Source of the DNA: Methanocalculus taiwanensis | GTDB lineage: Archaea; Halobacteriota; Methanomicrobia; Methanomicrobiales; Methanocorpusculaceae | Assembly (NCBI RefSeq): GCF_024372745.1 | Contig: NZ_VOTZ01000005.1 | Coordinates: 1-53,251 of the forward strand | DNA: 53,251 nucleotides | Direction of reading: 5' to 3' | In this document: positions 24,389 to 34,168 of the stretch, piece by piece | Position numbering within the stretch: position 1 is the first letter of the stretch | Layout: the number at the start of each line of letters is the position of its first letter | Program-made: the position numbers and the translations under genes | Notes under the pieces: model-generated | What the model saw: the letters and a program-made list of their open reading frames with translations, nothing else | The model's database searches: none | Told to the model about the DNA's origin: nothing

Positions 24389-25402
24389 TTGGGAGTTTCC
24401 ATACGTCCCCTGCTGGAAGGGTGCCGCCACCCGGTCAGCTTCGGTGATATTCCCGGGGTCGCAGCGATCGATGCAAATAATGCCCTGTACCAGTTCCTTT
24501 CGATCATAAGGCAGGCAGATGGAACACCCCTGCAGGATACGCGGGGACGGGTGACATCGCACCTCTCAGGCCTTCTCTTCCGGACAGCTCATTTTCTTGA
24601 GAACGGGATTATGCCCTTTTATATCTTTGATGGTCCCCCGCCTGAGTTTAAGGCGAAAACCATCGCCGGAAGACGCGGGATTCGTGAGGCTGGTGAAGTT
24701 GAATGGGTAAAAGCTCTGGAACGAGGGGATACCGATGCAGCTTACCGCGCGGCAATGCAGTCCACACGGGTTGATTCCGCTATACTTGGAAGTGGCAAAA
24801 GGCTTCTCGATGCACTTGGCATACCCTGGATGGAAGCCCCCTCGGAAGGTGAAGCGCAGTCTGCCAGCTTTGTCAATAATGGAATTGCCACATATTCAGT
24901 ATCCCAGGATTATGACTCACTTCTCTTTGGCGCTACTGTCCTCGTCAGGAACCTGACCGTTTCAGGAAAGCGACGGATTGGGGGAAGGCAGGTTACGATA
25001 TCTCCTGAGCGGATTTATCTCTCAGAATTCCTTGAAACGCTTGGAATTACCCGTGAGCAGCTCATCCAGATAGGTATTCTCATCGGGACAGACTTTAATG
25101 AAGGGATCCATGGAATCGGGCCGAAGAAGGCATTGAAGATCGTCCGCGAGGGCCGGTTTTCTGATGTGATGGCAGAAAAAGCACCTGATACCGATCCAGA
25201 ACCGATCATGGAGTTTTTCCTCTTCCCGCCGGTAGCCGAAGCATACCAGCCGGAATGGAAGCCGCCTGATCCCGATCAGATCATCGGGATCCTCTGTGAT
25301 GAGTATGGGTTCTCAACCGAGCGGATTCACCCGGTGCTTGAACGTATAGCAGGGCCACAGAAAGGTCAGTCCGGGCAGATGCGGCTTGATGCCTGGAATT
25401 AG
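24389..25402 (+). CDS. fen: Flap endonuclease 1
   Basis: A 337-residue structure-specific nuclease that removes 5' flaps in Okazaki-fragment maturation and repair. The acidic metal-binding positions are in I-D-A-N-N, I-F-D-G-P-P-P, E-A-P-S-E-G-E-A-Q and S-Q-D-Y-D-S; the helix-hairpin-helix is G-I-H-G-I-G-P-K-K-A. The C-terminus Q-M-R-L-D-A-W-N resembles a PCNA-binding box (QxxLxxWF) with its last aromatic residue replaced by Asn. The start is a TTG at 24389 with GGGGAT upstream, giving the M-G-V family N-terminus. Confidence 0.93.
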   Translation: MGVSIRPLLEGCRHPVSFGDIPGVAAIDANNALYQFLSIIRQADGTPLQDTRGRVTSHLSGLLFRTAHFLENGIMPFYIFDGPPPEFKAKTIAGRRGIREAGEVEWVKALERGDTDAAYRAAMQSTRVDSAILGSGKRLLDALGIPWMEAPSEGEAQSASFVNNGIATYSVSQDYDSLLFGATVLVRNLTVSGKRRIGGRQVTISPERIYLSEFLETLGITREQLIQIGILIGTDFNEGIHGIGPKKALKIVREGRFSDVMAEKAPDTDPEPIMEFFLFPPVAEAYQPEWKPPDPDQIIGILCDEYGFSTERIHPVLERIAGPQKGQSGQMRLDAWN

Positions 25403-27956: not shown

Positions 27957-28012
27957 CAATCATGGTGAAGTTATCACAACTTCTATAGTTCACAAACTCC
28001 AATATCAGAGTG

Positions 28013-28828
28013 ATGAGACAGATTGCCCTCTATGGAAAGGGTGGTATCGGAAAATCAACGACATCGGCAAACCTGTCTGCGGCATGGGCGGATAAGGGGC
28101 TGGATGTACTCCAGATAGGCTGCGATCCAAAACATGACAGCACCAGGATGCTGATGCATGGACGGGTGATCCCGACCGTTCTTGACCTGCTCAGGGAGCA
28201 GAAGCATGATCTCATAGTCTCGGATGTCATCTACACCGGATACTCCGGTGTCAGGTGTGTCGAAGCGGGGGGGCCTGAACCCGGGATCGGATGTGCGGGA
28301 CGGGGCATCATCGCAACCTTCCAGCTCCTTGAGAAGCTCGGTGCGCTGCGAGGGGATCTGATCGTCTATGATGTACTAGGCGATGTCGTCTGTGGCGGGT
28401 TTGCGATGCCGATGAGGGAAGGATATGCAAAAGAGGTGTACCTTGTCACCTCAGGAGAACTGATGAGCCTGTATGCTGCAAACAATATTGCAAAGGCAAT
28501 CTCCCGTCTCAGCGCAAATAAGCGGAGTCAGGTCAGGCTTGCCGGTGTGATCGGCAATGGAAAGAATATCGAATGTGAAGAGGAGCTCGTATCTGAGTTT
28601 GCAGATGCAATAGGATCACAGATGGTCGCATTTATTCCACGATCGAAGACTGTCACGCAGGCTGAACTGAATAAGAAGACCGTCATCGATTATGCTCCCG
28701 CTTCATCACAGGCAGAGGTTTACCGGTCCTGTGCAGATACCATTCTTCTGAACACGGAGTTTTCAATTCCGACACCACTCTCCATTGATGATCTTGAGTC
28801 GCTCGCCTATAGATACCTTAAGGAATGA
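28013..28828 (+). CDS. NifH-like reductase, CfbC/BchL-type
   Basis: A 271-residue homologue of the nitrogenase Fe protein. The P-loop is G-K-G-G-I-G-K-S-T (residues 8-16). The cluster-bridging cysteines are Cys94 ([10 protein letters not shown]) and Cys127 (D-V-V-C-G-G-F). The [19 protein letters not shown] tail and I-P-T-V-L-D resemble CfbC, the reductase of Ni-sirohydrochlorin reductive cyclase in F430 synthesis, more than true NifH. Such proteins deliver electrons with ATP hydrolysis to a NifD-like partner. Two different NifD/K-like genes follow in tight overlap. A GTG just before the ATG is an alternative start. The reaction served is uncertain. Confidence 0.85.
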
Positions 28829-29837
28829 AGGGTGCACCTTAACCGGCGTCCTCTCGGTCACCGGTTTCATGGAGGATGCAGTTACGGTGATCCATGGCCC
28901 CTCCGGATGCACCCATCACAATGCCTCGCTTCTGCATGCCTCACTTGCTGAGATAGATGAGGTGCATATCCCATGCCTCCTCTCCAGCAATATCCTTGAG
29001 GAGGAGGTTATCTTTGGTGGTGAAGATGCGCTTCTCCATACGCTGGATGCCGCAGAGGCACGATCGCCCTCTCTCATCTGTGTTGTATCCACCTGTATCG
29101 CTGATACAATCGGCGATGATTGTGCCGCTCTTTGCAGACAGAAGAGAAGTATGCCGGTTATTCATATTCCGGGTGCAGGTTTTCTCGGTGGCGGGTTTTC
29201 AGAGGGGATCAGAAACGCTCTTACATCCCTTCTTACCCTTGCAGATTCAGATAGCAGCACGCACGATGATAGTGTGCTGATTGTCGGGGAGAAAAATCTT
29301 GAATACGAGGCAGAAGAGAATTTCAGCGAGATCTGCCGGCTCCTCTCCCTCCTCGATCTGGCTCCCGGCATCAGGTTTGTCAGGAGGGCTCCTGTCTCAG
29401 ATTGCCAAAAGATCGGCTCTGCACCGGTGGCAATCATGAGGGAGCCATCCCTTCTGCCGGTCGGATCGATCCTGAGTAGCCGTTTCAACACCCATGTCAT
29501 CCCCGGTTTTCCCGTTGGAACAAAAGGTACCTCTGGTTTCCTTCAGAAGCTTGGGGAGTATACCGGAATCGATCCCCGGTCTGCAATCCATGATGAAGAG
29601 GGGCTGATTGCCGATCTCTATTGCAGCTTTGATGATCTCCGGTGTGAATCCATCCGGCTGAATAGAGCGGGTGCGGATCCCGCCACAATCATGGCAGCAG
29701 AATCAGCCATCAATTCGCTTGGAATGAAGATCAGATCAGAGGGCTATCCTCTCCCATTGCCCTATGATCCGCCCATAGGAATTTCCGGAACCAGGCGAAT
29801 GCTGAATGCGTGGAGGAGGTGCCTTTCCCATGCCTGA
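28788..29837 (+). CDS. NifD-like nitrogenase component 1 protein, first subunit
   Basis: A 349-residue oxidoreductase/nitrogenase component 1 protein. Cys16 (N-E-G-C-T-L-T-G), Cys41 (G-P-S-G-C-T-H-H) and Cys103 ([12 protein letters not shown]) match in spacing (25 and 62 residues) the P-cluster cysteines 62, 88 and 154 of NifD; Cys63 is extra. The protein is much shorter than NifD (about 480) and near the size of CfbD. I find no clear equivalent of the FeMo-cofactor ligands. It starts about 40 bases inside the NifH-like gene (ATG 28788; a TTG precedes it), implying coupled translation. Likely catalytic core with the next gene; substrate unknown. Confidence 0.82.
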
Positions 29838-30948
29838 ATGTATAAACCCCGTCTGGCCATGTGCCCTTACAGGAGCCGCCTCCTTTCTGGCGGGCTTCAG
29901 TGGCCTCTCTGTTGTAATCCACGGATCAAGCGGCTGTTATTACTATCCAAAATCGCTCATCAAGGCACCGCTCCACGGATCATTCATCCTGCAGGAGGAG
30001 GTGATCTTCGGGGCCGGCACCCGGCTCAGATCGGTCGTCTCGGAGATTATGGAGAGGGGTGCTGACCGGGTGGCGGTTGTCAATTCCTGTGTCCCTGCAC
30101 TGATGGGGGAGGATCTTGCCTCGGAACTGGATGGACTTCCGGTTCTCATCATTGATTCCCCGGGTTTTCTCGGAGATGCCGAAGCAGGGTACCGGATCGC
30201 AGCTGACTCCCTTCTCAAGGAGGCAGAGATCACTATTGATGGGGTGAATGTCGGTGGCATCTGCCTCCTTGATCCCTTCTGGCGTGGGAATATGCATGAA
30301 TCAGAACGAATTCTCGCGATGGCCAAAATCCCGGTTGGAGCAGTGCTCTCTTATGATCAGCTGGAATCGCTCTCGCATGCAGCAACGGTGACGGTTTCGG
30401 CAAATCCCGATTATGCAGCTCCACTCGGGAAATCAGGCGGGTCACTCCTTGGCCTTTCCTCCCTGAAGCAAACCCTGATGTATGCAGCCGATTCGATCCC
30501 TGGTGCCGATCCGTCTCCGGTTCTAAAGGAGTGCGATAAGACTGAAGAGATGGTAGTTGCCGCCTGTGAGAAGTACCTCCGGAGAAATGATCCACCTGTC
30601 GCAGCCATCTGTGCACAGTCAGGATATGCTGCGTTCTTTGCCGAACTCCTGGTGCGCTATCTCGGAGCAGAGCGACCACTCATCCTTCCGAGGAATACAA
30701 CAGATACACCAGCTGTCACCGATTACGATCAGATCAGATCAGCCCTCAACTCAGACTCATATGATCTGCTGCTTGGGTCCTCATATGAAGCACGTATCCT
30801 CCCTGATGCAGCATTTGCCGGTATTGCCCCTCCAAACCGTGGGCGTGTTACACTCGGCAGCCGACCGCTTGCAGGAATTGAAGGCACCCTCCATGCGGTT
30901 GAGCTGATCCTGAATGCAATGATGGATCAGAGGAAGAAAGGCAGATGA
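29830..30948 (+). CDS. NifK/NifD-like nitrogenase component 1 protein, second subunit
   Basis: A 372-residue component 1 protein clearly distinct from its neighbour. Cys11 (W-P-C-A-L-T-G-A), Cys36 (G-S-S-G-C-Y-Y-Y) and Cys87 (V-N-S-C-V-P-A-L-M-G-E-D) line up with the three P-cluster-type cysteines of NifK (70, 95, 153; the last spacing is shorter here). Cys4 is extra. The ATG at 29830 has a strong GGAGGAGGTG site eight bases upstream and overlaps the first subunit by eight bases. Known CfbD works as a homodimer, so a second subunit suggests a heterotetramer like NifDK or BchNB. Function not assigned. Confidence 0.82.
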   Translation: MPECINPVWPCALTGAASFLAGFSGLSVVIHGSSGCYYYPKSLIKAPLHGSFILQEEVIFGAGTRLRSVVSEIMERGADRVAVVNSCVPALMGEDLASELDGLPVLIIDSPGFLGDAEAGYRIAADSLLKEAEITIDGVNVGGICLLDPFWRGNMHESERILAMAKIPVGAVLSYDQLESLSHAATVTVSANPDYAAPLGKSGGSLLGLSSLKQTLMYAADSIPGADPSPVLKECDKTEEMVVAACEKYLRRNDPPVAAICAQSGYAAFFAELLVRYLGAERPLILPRNTTDTPAVTDYDQIRSALNSDSYDLLLGSSYEARILPDAAFAGIAPPNRGRVTLGSRPLAGIEGTLHAVELILNAMMDQRKKGR

Positions 30949-30969
30949 TCTGCTTTCATTATTTTGATG

Positions 30970-31014: not shown

Positions 31015-31884
31015 CTACCCGTTGATCCAGTAGTTGACTGTATCAGGATTGGCCGAAATCCATGCACGGGCTGCCTCTTCATCAGGGACACCCTCTTCGA
31101 TACTGGTCATGACTTCTGCGATATCGGCAGTGGTCCACTGGAATCTCTGGAGAATTGCGTATGCCTTCGGATCATCTGTTTTAAGCCCGCTACGAGCAAC
31201 AGTGACGATATCTTCCGCATCGCCATAGACGCCTTTTGGATCGTCAAGGAACTTCAGGTCAAACCTGCCGAATTTCCAGTGCGGAGCCCATCCGGTGACA
31301 ACAATCCATTTCTCATTATTATATGCGGACCTAAGCTCTGCTGCCATCCCGGCACCGCTGGATGCAATGAGTTCGTAATCGAGGCCGTATTCAACGATTG
31401 CATCTTCAGTTGCCTGCATAATGCCGGCACCGGGATCGATTCCGATGATCTTCCCATCAAACTGGTCTGCAACTGCGTTCATCTCCTCAATTGAGTTGAT
31501 GGTTACGTATGTCGGAACAACAAGGCCAATACGTGCATTGCCAGGAATATTATCCTGCACATAATCGAGCTGGTCTCCATACTGCTCCCAGTAGTTTTTA
31601 TGGGTGTAGGGGAGCCATGCCGTAGTGGTGAAGTCGATATCGCCATTTGCAAGCCCTGCATAGAGAGGTCCGGCATCCACAGCAACGATATTCACCTTAT
31701 AGCCTGCTTCCCTGAAAACTTCCTGCATCACATGGGTGCTGGCAATGGCACAGTCCCATGTCACGTAGCCAATAGAGATCTCTTTCTGTGGTTCTGTTGT
31801 CTCACCGACACACCCTGCTGTGAGGAGTGCGGTGCAGAGCATAAACCCTGCAAAAAGCGTGATAAACATCTGTTTTGAAATCAT
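31015..31884 (-). CDS. opuAC: Glycine betaine/proline-type ABC transporter, substrate-binding lipoprotein
   Basis: A 289-residue extracellular binding protein of the OpuAC/ProX type. The signal peptide ends in a lipobox (L-L-T-A-G-C, Cys25). The binding domain begins I-S-I-G-Y-V-T-W-D-C-A-I-A-S-T-H, with W-L-P-Y-T-H and later G-W-A-P-H-W-K-F supplying aromatic cage residues for a quaternary amine. It is the last gene of a three-gene minus-strand operon after the permease, separated by 129 AT-rich bases. Uptake of glycine betaine for osmoprotection is the usual role; another quaternary amine is possible. Confidence 0.9.
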   Translation of the reverse strand: MISKQMFITLFAGFMLCTALLTAGCVGETTEPQKEISIGYVTWDCAIASTHVMQEVFREAGYKVNIVAVDAGPLYAGLANGDIDFTTTAWLPYTHKNYWEQYGDQLDYVQDNIPGNARIGLVVPTYVTINSIEEMNAVADQFDGKIIGIDPGAGIMQATEDAIVEYGLDYELIASSGAGMAAELRSAYNNEKWIVVTGWAPHWKFGRFDLKFLDDPKGVYGDAEDIVTVARSGLKTDDPKAYAILQRFQWTTADIAEVMTSIEEGVPDEEAARAWISANPDTVNYWING

Positions 31885-32013
31885 TCATTCACCATCCATT
31901 TTAATTGTTTTGATTTTTATTTGATAGTCTAAGGAGACCAGTTGAACTTTTGTGGTTAATTAGTGAAAAAAGTTTTTGATTATATTTATATATTATGTGT
32001 TTTTTGAAAGTAC

Positions 32014-32886
32014 TTACTCCCGTGTCTTCCCGGTCTTAATCAGGCCCTGCGTGATCCGATCAAGGATGATTGCGATGATCACTATCGCAAGCCCAGCCTC
32101 AAAGCCCATGGCGATATTCACCCGCTGGATACCCACGAGCACCTGGTACCCAAGTCCGCCTGCCCCGATCATTGATGCGATGACGACCATGGAAAGGGCG
32201 AGCATGATGCACTGGTTGACGCCAGCCATGATTGTTGGCATCGCTACTGGCAGCTGAACCTTGATAAGTTTCTGTTGTGGCGTTGCGCCGAAGGCATCTG
32301 ACACCTCAATAAGTTCAACTGGGATCTGCCTGATGCCAAGGTTCGTCAGCCGGATTGCAGGCGGCATTGCAAAGACAACCGTTGCAATCATGCCGGGCAC
32401 ATTTCCAAGGCTGAAGAATATGACCGCCGGGATCAGGTATACAAATGATGGCATTGTCTGCATGAAGTCAAGGAGAACCCTAATTCCTGCGTTAATGGTA
32501 TCGTTATTGGCTGCCAGGATGCCAAGCGGTATTCCGATCAAAAGAGCAATGATCGTTGAGGATATGACGAGGGCAAGCGTCATCATCGCATGGCTCCAGA
32601 GCTGGAGGTTCCAGATCAGGAGCAGTCCGGCAATGCTCAGGAGAGCCAGGCGAAGATCTTTCCGTGTAATCAGATAGATGATAATGCCCAAAATCGGGAT
32701 CATTGCCAGTGGCGGGAGGAGTGTCAGGATATCCTGAAAACCATTGAGAAGGAACCGAAGCACTTCTGTGATCCCATCGAGCAACCAGCCGAGGTTTGCC
32801 TCGATCCAGTCAACGATATCGGATACTAACTGGCCGATAGGGATTTTTGGGAGATCAATAGGATAATCAAGCGACAATTGGCTCAC
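32014..32886 (-). CDS. opuAB: Glycine betaine-type ABC transporter permease
   Basis: A 290-residue inner-membrane permease of the ProW/OpuAB type with about six or seven helices. It has the BPD-transport EAA loop E-V-S-D-A-F-G-A-T-P-Q-Q-K-L-I-K-V-Q-L-P and the family block M-Q-T-M-P-S-F-V-Y-L-I-P. An amphipathic N-terminal stretch of about 40 residues precedes the helices, as in other ProW proteins. It overlaps the ATPase gene by 20 bases. Confidence 0.92.
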   Translation of the reverse strand: MSQLSLDYPIDLPKIPIGQLVSDIVDWIEANLGWLLDGITEVLRFLLNGFQDILTLLPPLAMIPILGIIIYLITRKDLRLALLSIAGLLLIWNLQLWSHAMMTLALVISSTIIALLIGIPLGILAANNDTINAGIRVLLDFMQTMPSFVYLIPAVIFFSLGNVPGMIATVVFAMPPAIRLTNLGIRQIPVELIEVSDAFGATPQQKLIKVQLPVAMPTIMAGVNQCIMLALSMVVIASMIGAGGLGYQVLVGIQRVNIAMGFEAGLAIVIIAIILDRITQGLIKTGKTRE

Positions 32887-34087
32887 TCTCCTTCCGTGCG
32901 AGTGCTGAAAGAACCGATCCCCTCACAATAATTCCTTTCAGCCTGGTATCTTCATCGACAACCGGAAGAGGAAACTTACTATCAGCAATGATCGGGATGA
33001 TCTCTCCAAGCGGGGTATTCAGGTGGATCTGCGGGAGATCATTGATGACGATATTTTCAAGGGTCTTGTGATCGTTTTTTACCGCCTCCACCACATCATC
33101 GATCTGGACGATACCCTTCAGCAGGCGGTGCTGTGTCACCACAAAGAGGCTTGAGATACCATATTCCTTCATCAGGCGTGCAGCAAGACGCGGCCCGCTT
33201 TTACATGAGATGACCGGATCGGCCTTTTTCATCACGTCCTGTGCGGTCAGCACCCTGGTCATATCGACATCGGCAACGAACCGCTCGACATAGTCGTTGC
33301 TTGGGTTCATCAGGATCTCTTCAGATGTTCCGATCTGGATGATCTTCCCATCTTTCATCAGCGCGATCCTGGTTCCGAGCTTCAGCGCTTCGTCGAGATC
33401 ATGGGTGACGAAGATGATCGTCTTATTCAGCCTCTCCTGAAGATCGATCAGTTCATCCTGCATGTCACGCCGAATCAATGGATCGAGTGCACTGAATGCT
33501 TCGTCCATCAGCAGGATCTCAGCATCACTTGCGAGTGCGCGAGCAAGCCCTACCCGCTGTTTCATCCCGCCTGAGAGCTGATCCGGCATGCTCTGCTCAT
33601 ATCCTGCAAGCCCGACCAGGTTCAGCGCCTCTGCTGCTTTTCTATGCCGTTCTTCGAGTTCGATCCCCTGAATCTCAAGACCGAATGCTACATTATCGAG
33701 GACAGTTCTGTGCGGGAGGAGTGCGAAGTTCTGGAAGATCATTCCTGCCTGTTTTCTCCGGAATTCCCTTATCTCATCATCATTCATCGTCACAATGTCA
33801 TTCCCATTGATGACGATACTCCCCGCTGTCGGGTCGATTAGCCGGTTTAAACACCGGAGAAGTGTTGATTTTCCACATCCCGAGAGCCCCATCAGGACAA
33901 ATATCTCTCCTTTGAATACCTGGAAAGAGATATCATTCAGCCCAACAGTCTGACCTGTTTTCTCGAGAATTTCATTCTTTGATTGTCCGTCCCTGAGCAT
34001 CTGGAGTGCTTTCTCCGGCCTGCTTCCGAATATTTTTGAGAGTTTGTTTACGTCTATCTGAACCTCTGGCTCATACTCATTCTCCAT
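32867..34087 (-). CDS. opuAA: Glycine betaine-type ABC transporter ATPase with CBS domains
   Basis: A 406-residue ATPase of the ProV/OpuAA type. It has Walker A G-L-S-G-C-G-K-S-T, Q-loop, signature L-S-G-G-M-K-Q-R, Walker B I-L-L-M-D-E-A and H-loop V-T-H-D. About 110 C-terminal residues form two CBS motifs, which in OpuA-type transporters sense ionic strength. I start at the ATG at 34087, which has a perfect GGAGGTG site seven bases upstream; the frame extends to 34168 without such a signal. First gene of the operon. Confidence 0.93.
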   Translation of the reverse strand: MENEYEPEVQIDVNKLSKIFGSRPEKALQMLRDGQSKNEILEKTGQTVGLNDISFQVFKGEIFVLMGLSGCGKSTLLRCLNRLIDPTAGSIVINGNDIVTMNDDEIREFRRKQAGMIFQNFALLPHRTVLDNVAFGLEIQGIELEERHRKAAEALNLVGLAGYEQSMPDQLSGGMKQRVGLARALASDAEILLMDEAFSALDPLIRRDMQDELIDLQERLNKTIIFVTHDLDEALKLGTRIALMKDGKIIQIGTSEEILMNPSNDYVERFVADVDMTRVLTAQDVMKKADPVISCKSGPRLAARLMKEYGISSLFVVTQHRLLKGIVQIDDVVEAVKNDHKTLENIVINDLPQIHLNTPLGEIIPIIADSKFPLPVVDEDTRLKGIIVRGSVLSALARKESEPIVA

Positions 34088-34155
34088 CAAACACCTCCAA
34101 TGGCTGGATATTCTTAGTTGATGGCATCTGTTTCTGAGCAGATTACACCTGCTGT

Positions 34156-34168
34156 ATGGTGACACCAT
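34156..34168. promoter_or_regulatory. Palindrome upstream of the opu operon
   Basis: ATGGTG-A-CACCAT, a perfect 13-base palindrome about 70 bases before the opuAA start, in the 290-base gap (34088-34377) that otherwise holds only AT-rich promoter-like sequence. A TATA-like AGTATAC on the minus strand lies further upstream, near 34205. A repressor site responding to osmotic state is a possibility. Confidence 0.4.

Follow-up and report, generated by a model that had tools for sequence, protein, structure and literature searches.

Nitrogenase-like enzymes of known function differ in the make-up of their component 1. CfbD, the component 1 of F430 synthesis, is a homodimer (PMC11423573), and the Cfb system is the only one that lacks a NifK homologue (PMC11423573, PMC12176620). 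The Group IV HDK enzymes of known function are the methylthio-alkane reductase MarHDK and the isethionate reductase IsrHDK (PMC11423573, PMC12552129); MarDK has P-cluster cysteines as well as an [Fe8S9C] cluster (PMC12552129). Dos Santos et al. (2012; PMC3464626) noted NifE/NifN-like pairs from several phyla, including Archaea, in which each protein has three cysteines and FeMoco ligands are absent; they also mentioned, as data not shown, nifH-nifE fusions followed by nifN. The pair Mlab_1040/1039 of Methanocorpusculum labreanum has two and one cysteines, respectively (PMC3464626). In the searchable open literature, we found no report of an order-wide pair of NifD- and NifK-type proteins encoded with the only CfbC of the genome, albeit an earlier description elsewhere is possible.

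The window analysed here, a whole stretch of 53,251 nucleotides from Methanocalculus taiwanensis, contains three co-directional genes, referred to as H, D and K (Table 1). As a sequence-only reading of this DNA had described, they overlap tightly (by 41 nt between H and D and 8 nt between D and K, given there as about 40 and 8). Also in agreement with that reading, they encode a NifH homologue with both cluster cysteines, C94 and C127, which are invariant in 41 homologues, and two dissimilar component-1 proteins of 349 and 372 residues. Both of the latter exceed the Pfam cut-off of Oxidored_nitro (PF00148), as H does that of Fer4_NifH. The start of K listed in Table 1 is preceded by a Shine-Dalgarno-like GGAGGTG and fits the conserved N-terminus MPECxNP. 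Since D and K are conserved order-wide, the operon is not a chance arrangement.

Table 1. Features of the H-D-K operon (positions in the window)
Feature	Coordinates	Strand	Start codon (alternative)	Description
H	28013..28828	+	ATG at 28013 (GTG at 28010); stop ends at 28828	NifH-type [4Fe-4S] ATPase; CfbC by curated model; Fer4_NifH 359 bits
D	28788..29837	+	ATG at 28788 (TTG at 28785)	nitrogenase component-1 alpha-type subunit, 349 aa; PF00148 161 bits
K	29830..30948	+	ATG at 29830	nitrogenase component-1 beta-type subunit, 372 aa; PF00148 87 bits
Terminator-like stem-loop with T-rich tail	30938..30956	+		3' end of K; weak; the consensus is bacterial

AlphaFold models of D and K (pLDDT 88 and 92, respectively) match subunits of nitrogenase, NifEN and DPOR in structure comparisons. 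With residues numbered on the longer ORFs (D from TTG 28785 and K from ATG 29806), the P-cluster positions are occupied by C17, C42 and C104 in D and by C19, C44 and C95 in K, and all six cysteines are conserved in the alignment. At the column of the FeMoco/L-cluster cysteine (Cys275 of the alpha subunit), every aligned D sequence has Arg, and at that of His442 of the alpha subunit every one has a gap. Given six cysteines and no cofactor ligands, each alpha/beta half is expected to hold a single Fe-S cluster and no cofactor of the FeMo type. The ligand pattern would be compatible with an open substrate cavity of the DPOR kind, and the invariant arginines (R197 and R219 in D; R168 and R296 in K) would suit a polycarboxylate, that is, polyanionic, substrate.

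No NCBIfam family was matched over its cut-off by D or K, the best match being NifE with 65.5 bits against a cut-off of 505. With the CfbD model TIGR03282, they scored 48.4 and 25.2 bits, respectively (cut-off, 268.4), and with the BchN/BchB models D did not exceed 54 bits (cut-offs, 324 to 509), while K does not appear among the matches listed. The locus resembles CfbC/CfbD in having an ATP-driven Fe protein, which is CfbC by the curated model, and a component 1 of about 350 aa. However, D and K are two dissimilar subunits with six cysteines, whereas CfbD is a homodimer with Ser/Cys/Cys at the three P-cluster positions and is encoded elsewhere. DPOR (BchLNB/ChlLNB) and COR (BchXYZ) share the fold, a heteromeric component 1 and the lack of FeMo-type cofactor ligands, but BchB has Pro/Asp/Cys where D and K contribute six cluster cysteines, and the scores are far under the BchN/BchB cut-offs. 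To our knowledge, the hosts of D/K have no chlorophyll pathway. NifEN and NifDK have the same alpha/beta architecture and cysteines at the P-cluster positions; in contrast to them, D lacks both the FeMoco/L-cluster cysteine and the His442 region, and the subunits measure 350 to 380 aa instead of about 450 to 540 aa. MarHDK and IsrHDK have the HDK gene set, and MarDK the P-cluster cysteines, but H-D-K lacks a B-type radical SAM partner and the cofactor cysteine, and in the trees it is separate from the Group IV HDK-type proteins included there. The two and one cysteines of Mlab_1040/1039 are also unlike the six of D/K.

H scored 412.4 bits with the F430_CfbC model NF033200 (cut-off, 402) and fell below the cut-off of the NifH model. 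In the genome (2.34 Mb in 69 contigs, 99.9% complete), H was the only NifH match over the cut-off, and three component-1 proteins were present, namely D, K and a canonical CfbD. The latter is encoded on contig C17 (504 bits; cut-off of TIGR03282, 268.4), together with CfbB (639 bits; cut-off, 560), CfbE (295 bits; cut-off, 250) and CfbA (150.5 bits; cut-off, 120), in a cfbB-cfbD-cfbE-cfbA cluster that contains no cfbC. The earlier statement that F430 genes are absent near the operon thus stands, as the operon lies on contig C5. Of the second, canonical cfbC/cfbD set that the sequence-only reading had considered, the genome holds the cfbD and no additional cfbC, a mixed outcome for the refutation proposed there. 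A single CfbD over the cut-off was found in 40 out of 40 Methanomicrobiales genomes tested, and among the 29 genomes of the same family that gave a match, 25 encode one NifH-type protein and no more. The NifH-type search threshold also recovers Methanosarcina-type CfbC (about 51% identity, E about 1e-78), which would therefore have been found; since no other NifH homologue exceeds the cut-off, H is the sole candidate reductase for CfbD. From gene content, H is very probably the reductase for F430 synthesis, and it appears to be common to F430 synthesis and the D/K pair, a point absent from the earlier reading. In the best trees, H is placed with NifH and not with Methanosarcina-type CfbC (UFBoot 89), while H and CfbC as one clade were not rejected (p-AU 0.22). 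The replacement of CfbC by a NifH-derived protein, which these trees suggest, is not significant and is thus not asserted here.

K was present in 126 out of 135 genomes of the order that are at least 90% complete. The nine genomes without it are seven of genus g36, which we take to be Methanospirillum-like, plus G129, of one other genus, and G160; in G160 an assembly gap is likely, because H is missing there too. In g36 (loci L231 and L233) and G129 (L236), D and K have been lost cleanly and H is still in the same neighbourhood, with fprA, a uridine kinase-like gene or trkH upstream and an unchanged small gene downstream. The H proteins of these genomes continue to score as CfbC, and the Methanospirillum-type lineages that lost D/K retain both CfbC and CfbD. 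The persistence of H after the loss of D and K indicates that H has a function independent of them, and the loss in Methanospirillum-like methanogens implies that methanogenesis does not depend on the D/K product. Within family f3 (Methanoculleus-like), K now lies 1 to 15 kb from D and is often inverted, yet it is retained, suggesting that the two genes are maintained together even where they no longer share an operon. D is 75 to 80% identical to its counterparts in the nearest genomes, a value that falls to about 37 to 48% order-wide, and D-profile scores were at least 392 bits inside the order and at most 188 bits outside. All 80 named loci kept are from Methanomicrobiales or from MAGs named only Euryarchaeota, the closest named genomes being Methanocalculus and a Methanocorpusculaceae MAG. 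Two full H-D-K copies (L082 and L083) occur in a Methanoregula-type MAG (G182). The sole NifH-type protein of G141 (genus g31), encoded at L303:15597-16373 (+), is diverged (about 53% identity), scores below both the CfbC and the NifH cut-offs and has no D/K nearby.

Phylogenetic relationships were assessed with IQ-TREE on a set reduced from 99 sequences, using LG+G4 and a mixture model. D falls on the alpha side and K on the beta side, and a joint D+K clade was rejected (p-AU 0.026); the two are not recent duplicates of one another. In every tree, CfbD makes up a separate clade that includes neither D nor K, a D+CfbD clade being marginally disfavoured and not firmly rejected (p-AU 0.07). D is placed as sister to the D portion of NifH-D fusion proteins (UFBoot 100 with LG+G4; SH-aLRT 87 with the mixture model) and K to the K encoded with these fusions (UFBoot 80 and SH-aLRT 50, respectively). 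The NifH-D fusion plus K systems, hereafter fusion/K, thus appear to be the nearest relatives of D/K in these trees. In one tree, D adjoins BchN/BchB (UFBoot 96). Neither D nor K clusters with the HDK-type proteins of Chlorohelix and Treponema.

The fusions, whose D portion is NifE-like, measure about 730 to 805 aa and, with their NifN-like K, were seen at L185:6655-10139, L183, L177-L180, L192, L238 and L241, in Methanosarcinaceae-like and Methanospirillum-like genomes; fusions of this kind are those mentioned in PMC3464626. Fusion/K systems have the same H+D+K content as the operon described here and are nearest to it in the trees, but their H and D are fused, they have their own H, their K shows Asp/Cys/Pro at the three P-cluster positions, and CobN/ChlI/BtuFCD-like genes lie in some of their operons. 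In several genomes, these operons contain BtuF/C/D-like ABC genes, CbiK-like and CbiS-like genes, ChlI-type ATPases and a CobN/BchH-type chelatase that exceeds the CobN cut-off. This looks like an uncharacterised pathway of tetrapyrrole import, metalation and reduction, reminiscent of BchHID plus DPOR. It is mainly because of this chelatase and transporter context that a tetrapyrrole substrate is proposed for D/K. The chelatase context itself is not transferable to the H-D-K operon, since CobN is often absent altogether from D/K genomes, and a functional link between D/K and a CobN chelatase was rejected for want of any association. Moreover, the fusion K has a single cysteine at the three positions, so its function may differ from that of D/K.

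The conserved flanks of the 41 loci, namely trkH, a uridine kinase-like gene, fprA and a convergent LeuBCD/AksDEF-like cluster, represent synteny only. No tetrapyrrole or cfb gene was found among the neighbours of D/K, to which trkH, the uridine kinase-like gene and fprA are unrelated. Neither the flanking ORFs of the window nor the conserved neighbours of the 41 loci include a radical-SAM B protein, and no sulfur genes were seen near D/K in either set. No CobN or BtuFCD-type transporter adjoins H-D-K, in which H and D are separate genes and not fused. The neighbourhood was therefore set aside as a clue to function, as it offers synteny alone and no pathway signal. Among the other neighbours in the window, a glycine-betaine-type ABC transporter (binding protein, permease and ATPase) at 31015-34168 (-) and a flap-endonuclease-like ORF at 24389-25402 (+) were named by reading only.

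Taken together, H probably drives two different reductions. We give an even chance to the reading in which H serves both the homodimeric CfbD and a heterotetrameric D2K2, the latter probably being a tetrapyrrole reductase; the sharing of H, the assembly, the cluster type and the substrate are what we infer here. The more far-reaching proposal, an order-wide tetrapyrrole reductase that has P-cluster ligands and no cofactor and borrows CfbC, so that one Fe protein powers two chemically different reductions, is plausible but falls somewhat short of that. NifH-family Fe proteins bind ATP and transfer single electrons from a [4Fe-4S] cluster. H would bind ATP, carry the bridging [4Fe-4S] cluster and dock on either CfbD2 or D2K2, giving single electrons to the canonical CfbD homodimer for F430 synthesis or to D2K2. 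At the D2K2 interface, three cysteines from D and three from K would hold an Fe-S cluster, P-cluster-like or [4Fe-4S], relaying electrons to a substrate that, as in DPOR, sits in an open cavity lacking a FeMo-type cofactor. A tetrapyrrole would be the most likely substrate, for example an F430-pathway intermediate, a corrinoid precursor or another hydroporphyrin.

D/K could instead be an auxiliary or alternative reductase of the F430 pathway that works beside CfbD with the same CfbC, acting on Ni-sirohydrochlorin a,c-diamide, on an intermediate or on F430 itself to give a variant. The shared reductase being CfbC, the resemblance of the D/K fold to DPOR-type enzymes and the confinement of H-D-K-type pairs to a methanogen order all fit this idea. 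We nevertheless consider it unlikely, because CfbD is intact everywhere, D/K are dispensable in the Methanospirillum-type genomes and G129, the neighbourhood has no cfb genes, and D stands apart from CfbD in the best trees, though the test of D+CfbD was only marginal. That D/K, like MarHDK or IsrHDK, reduce a small sulfur or carbon substrate is a poorer prospect. Other Group IV HDK systems are of this kind (PMC12552129, PMC11423573) and the six-cysteine pattern of D/K corresponds to the P-cluster positions of MarDK, but the position of the Cys ligand of the MarDK [Fe8S9C] cluster (PMC12552129) is Arg in D. Furthermore, neither a radical-SAM B partner nor a sulfur gene lies near H-D-K, and D and K are separated from the Chlorohelix and Treponema proteins.

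The MCR activation complex contains L-clusters (PMC12176620), which raises the idea of D/K as a NifEN-like scaffold or maturase for its NifB-made [8Fe-9S-C] L-clusters, with H as its Fe protein. NifB is present, and NifE is the curated model most similar to D and K. This role is, however, improbable: where NifE/NifD carry the cofactor cysteine, D invariably has Arg, and it lacks the His442 region. In addition, NifB was found in 22 out of 22 genomes without D/K, so the supply of L-clusters is independent of D/K. That D and K, which adjoin the only CfbC, are the catalytic subunits of the F430 cyclase of Methanomicrobiales can scarcely be entertained, and as the sole cyclase they are ruled out, given the canonical cfbBDEA cluster in the same genome, CfbD in all 40 genomes tested and the absence of D/K from some methanogens of the order. 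Of the two options offered by the sequence-only reading, the separate nitrogenase-like reductase is accordingly favoured over the heteromeric F430 cyclase by the ubiquity of CfbD and the loss of D/K in Methanospirillum-type genomes.

In nearly every member of Methanomicrobiales, the sole CfbC is accompanied by a heteromeric component 1, and the unusual feature would be one Fe protein common to a homodimer and a heterotetramer. Were H to serve both, F430 synthesis would compete or be coordinated with a second ATP-driven reduction. Should the tetrapyrrole-reductase reading be true, Methanomicrobiales would contain an unknown reduced tetrapyrrole or a variant of F430 or of a corrinoid. A heteromeric, six-cysteine, cofactor-free complex with a CfbC-type Fe protein would also be a useful intermediate form in the debate on the origin of nitrogenase from simple reductases.

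Further nitrogenase-like loci were observed during the survey. A single component-1 protein of about 396 aa is encoded at L244:5927-7117 (-), L246:15675-17207 (+) and L302:5993-7171 (-). In two Methanomicrobiales genomes its gene is separated from cfbD by about 2 to 13 kb, and family f7 has the protein as well. Its P-cluster-position cysteines are present, the FeMoco-Cys position is still Cys, and no NCBIfam family is matched over the cut-off. Family f7 also has adjacent D-, K- and H-like triads (L299:7020-10813 (-) and L300:6846-10483 (-)), whose H is sister to the Methanomicrobiales H in the tree. Finally, one contig of family f28 (L195:1-19900) carries a cluster of at least four component-1 genes and three NifH-like genes that does not match the standard nif pattern.
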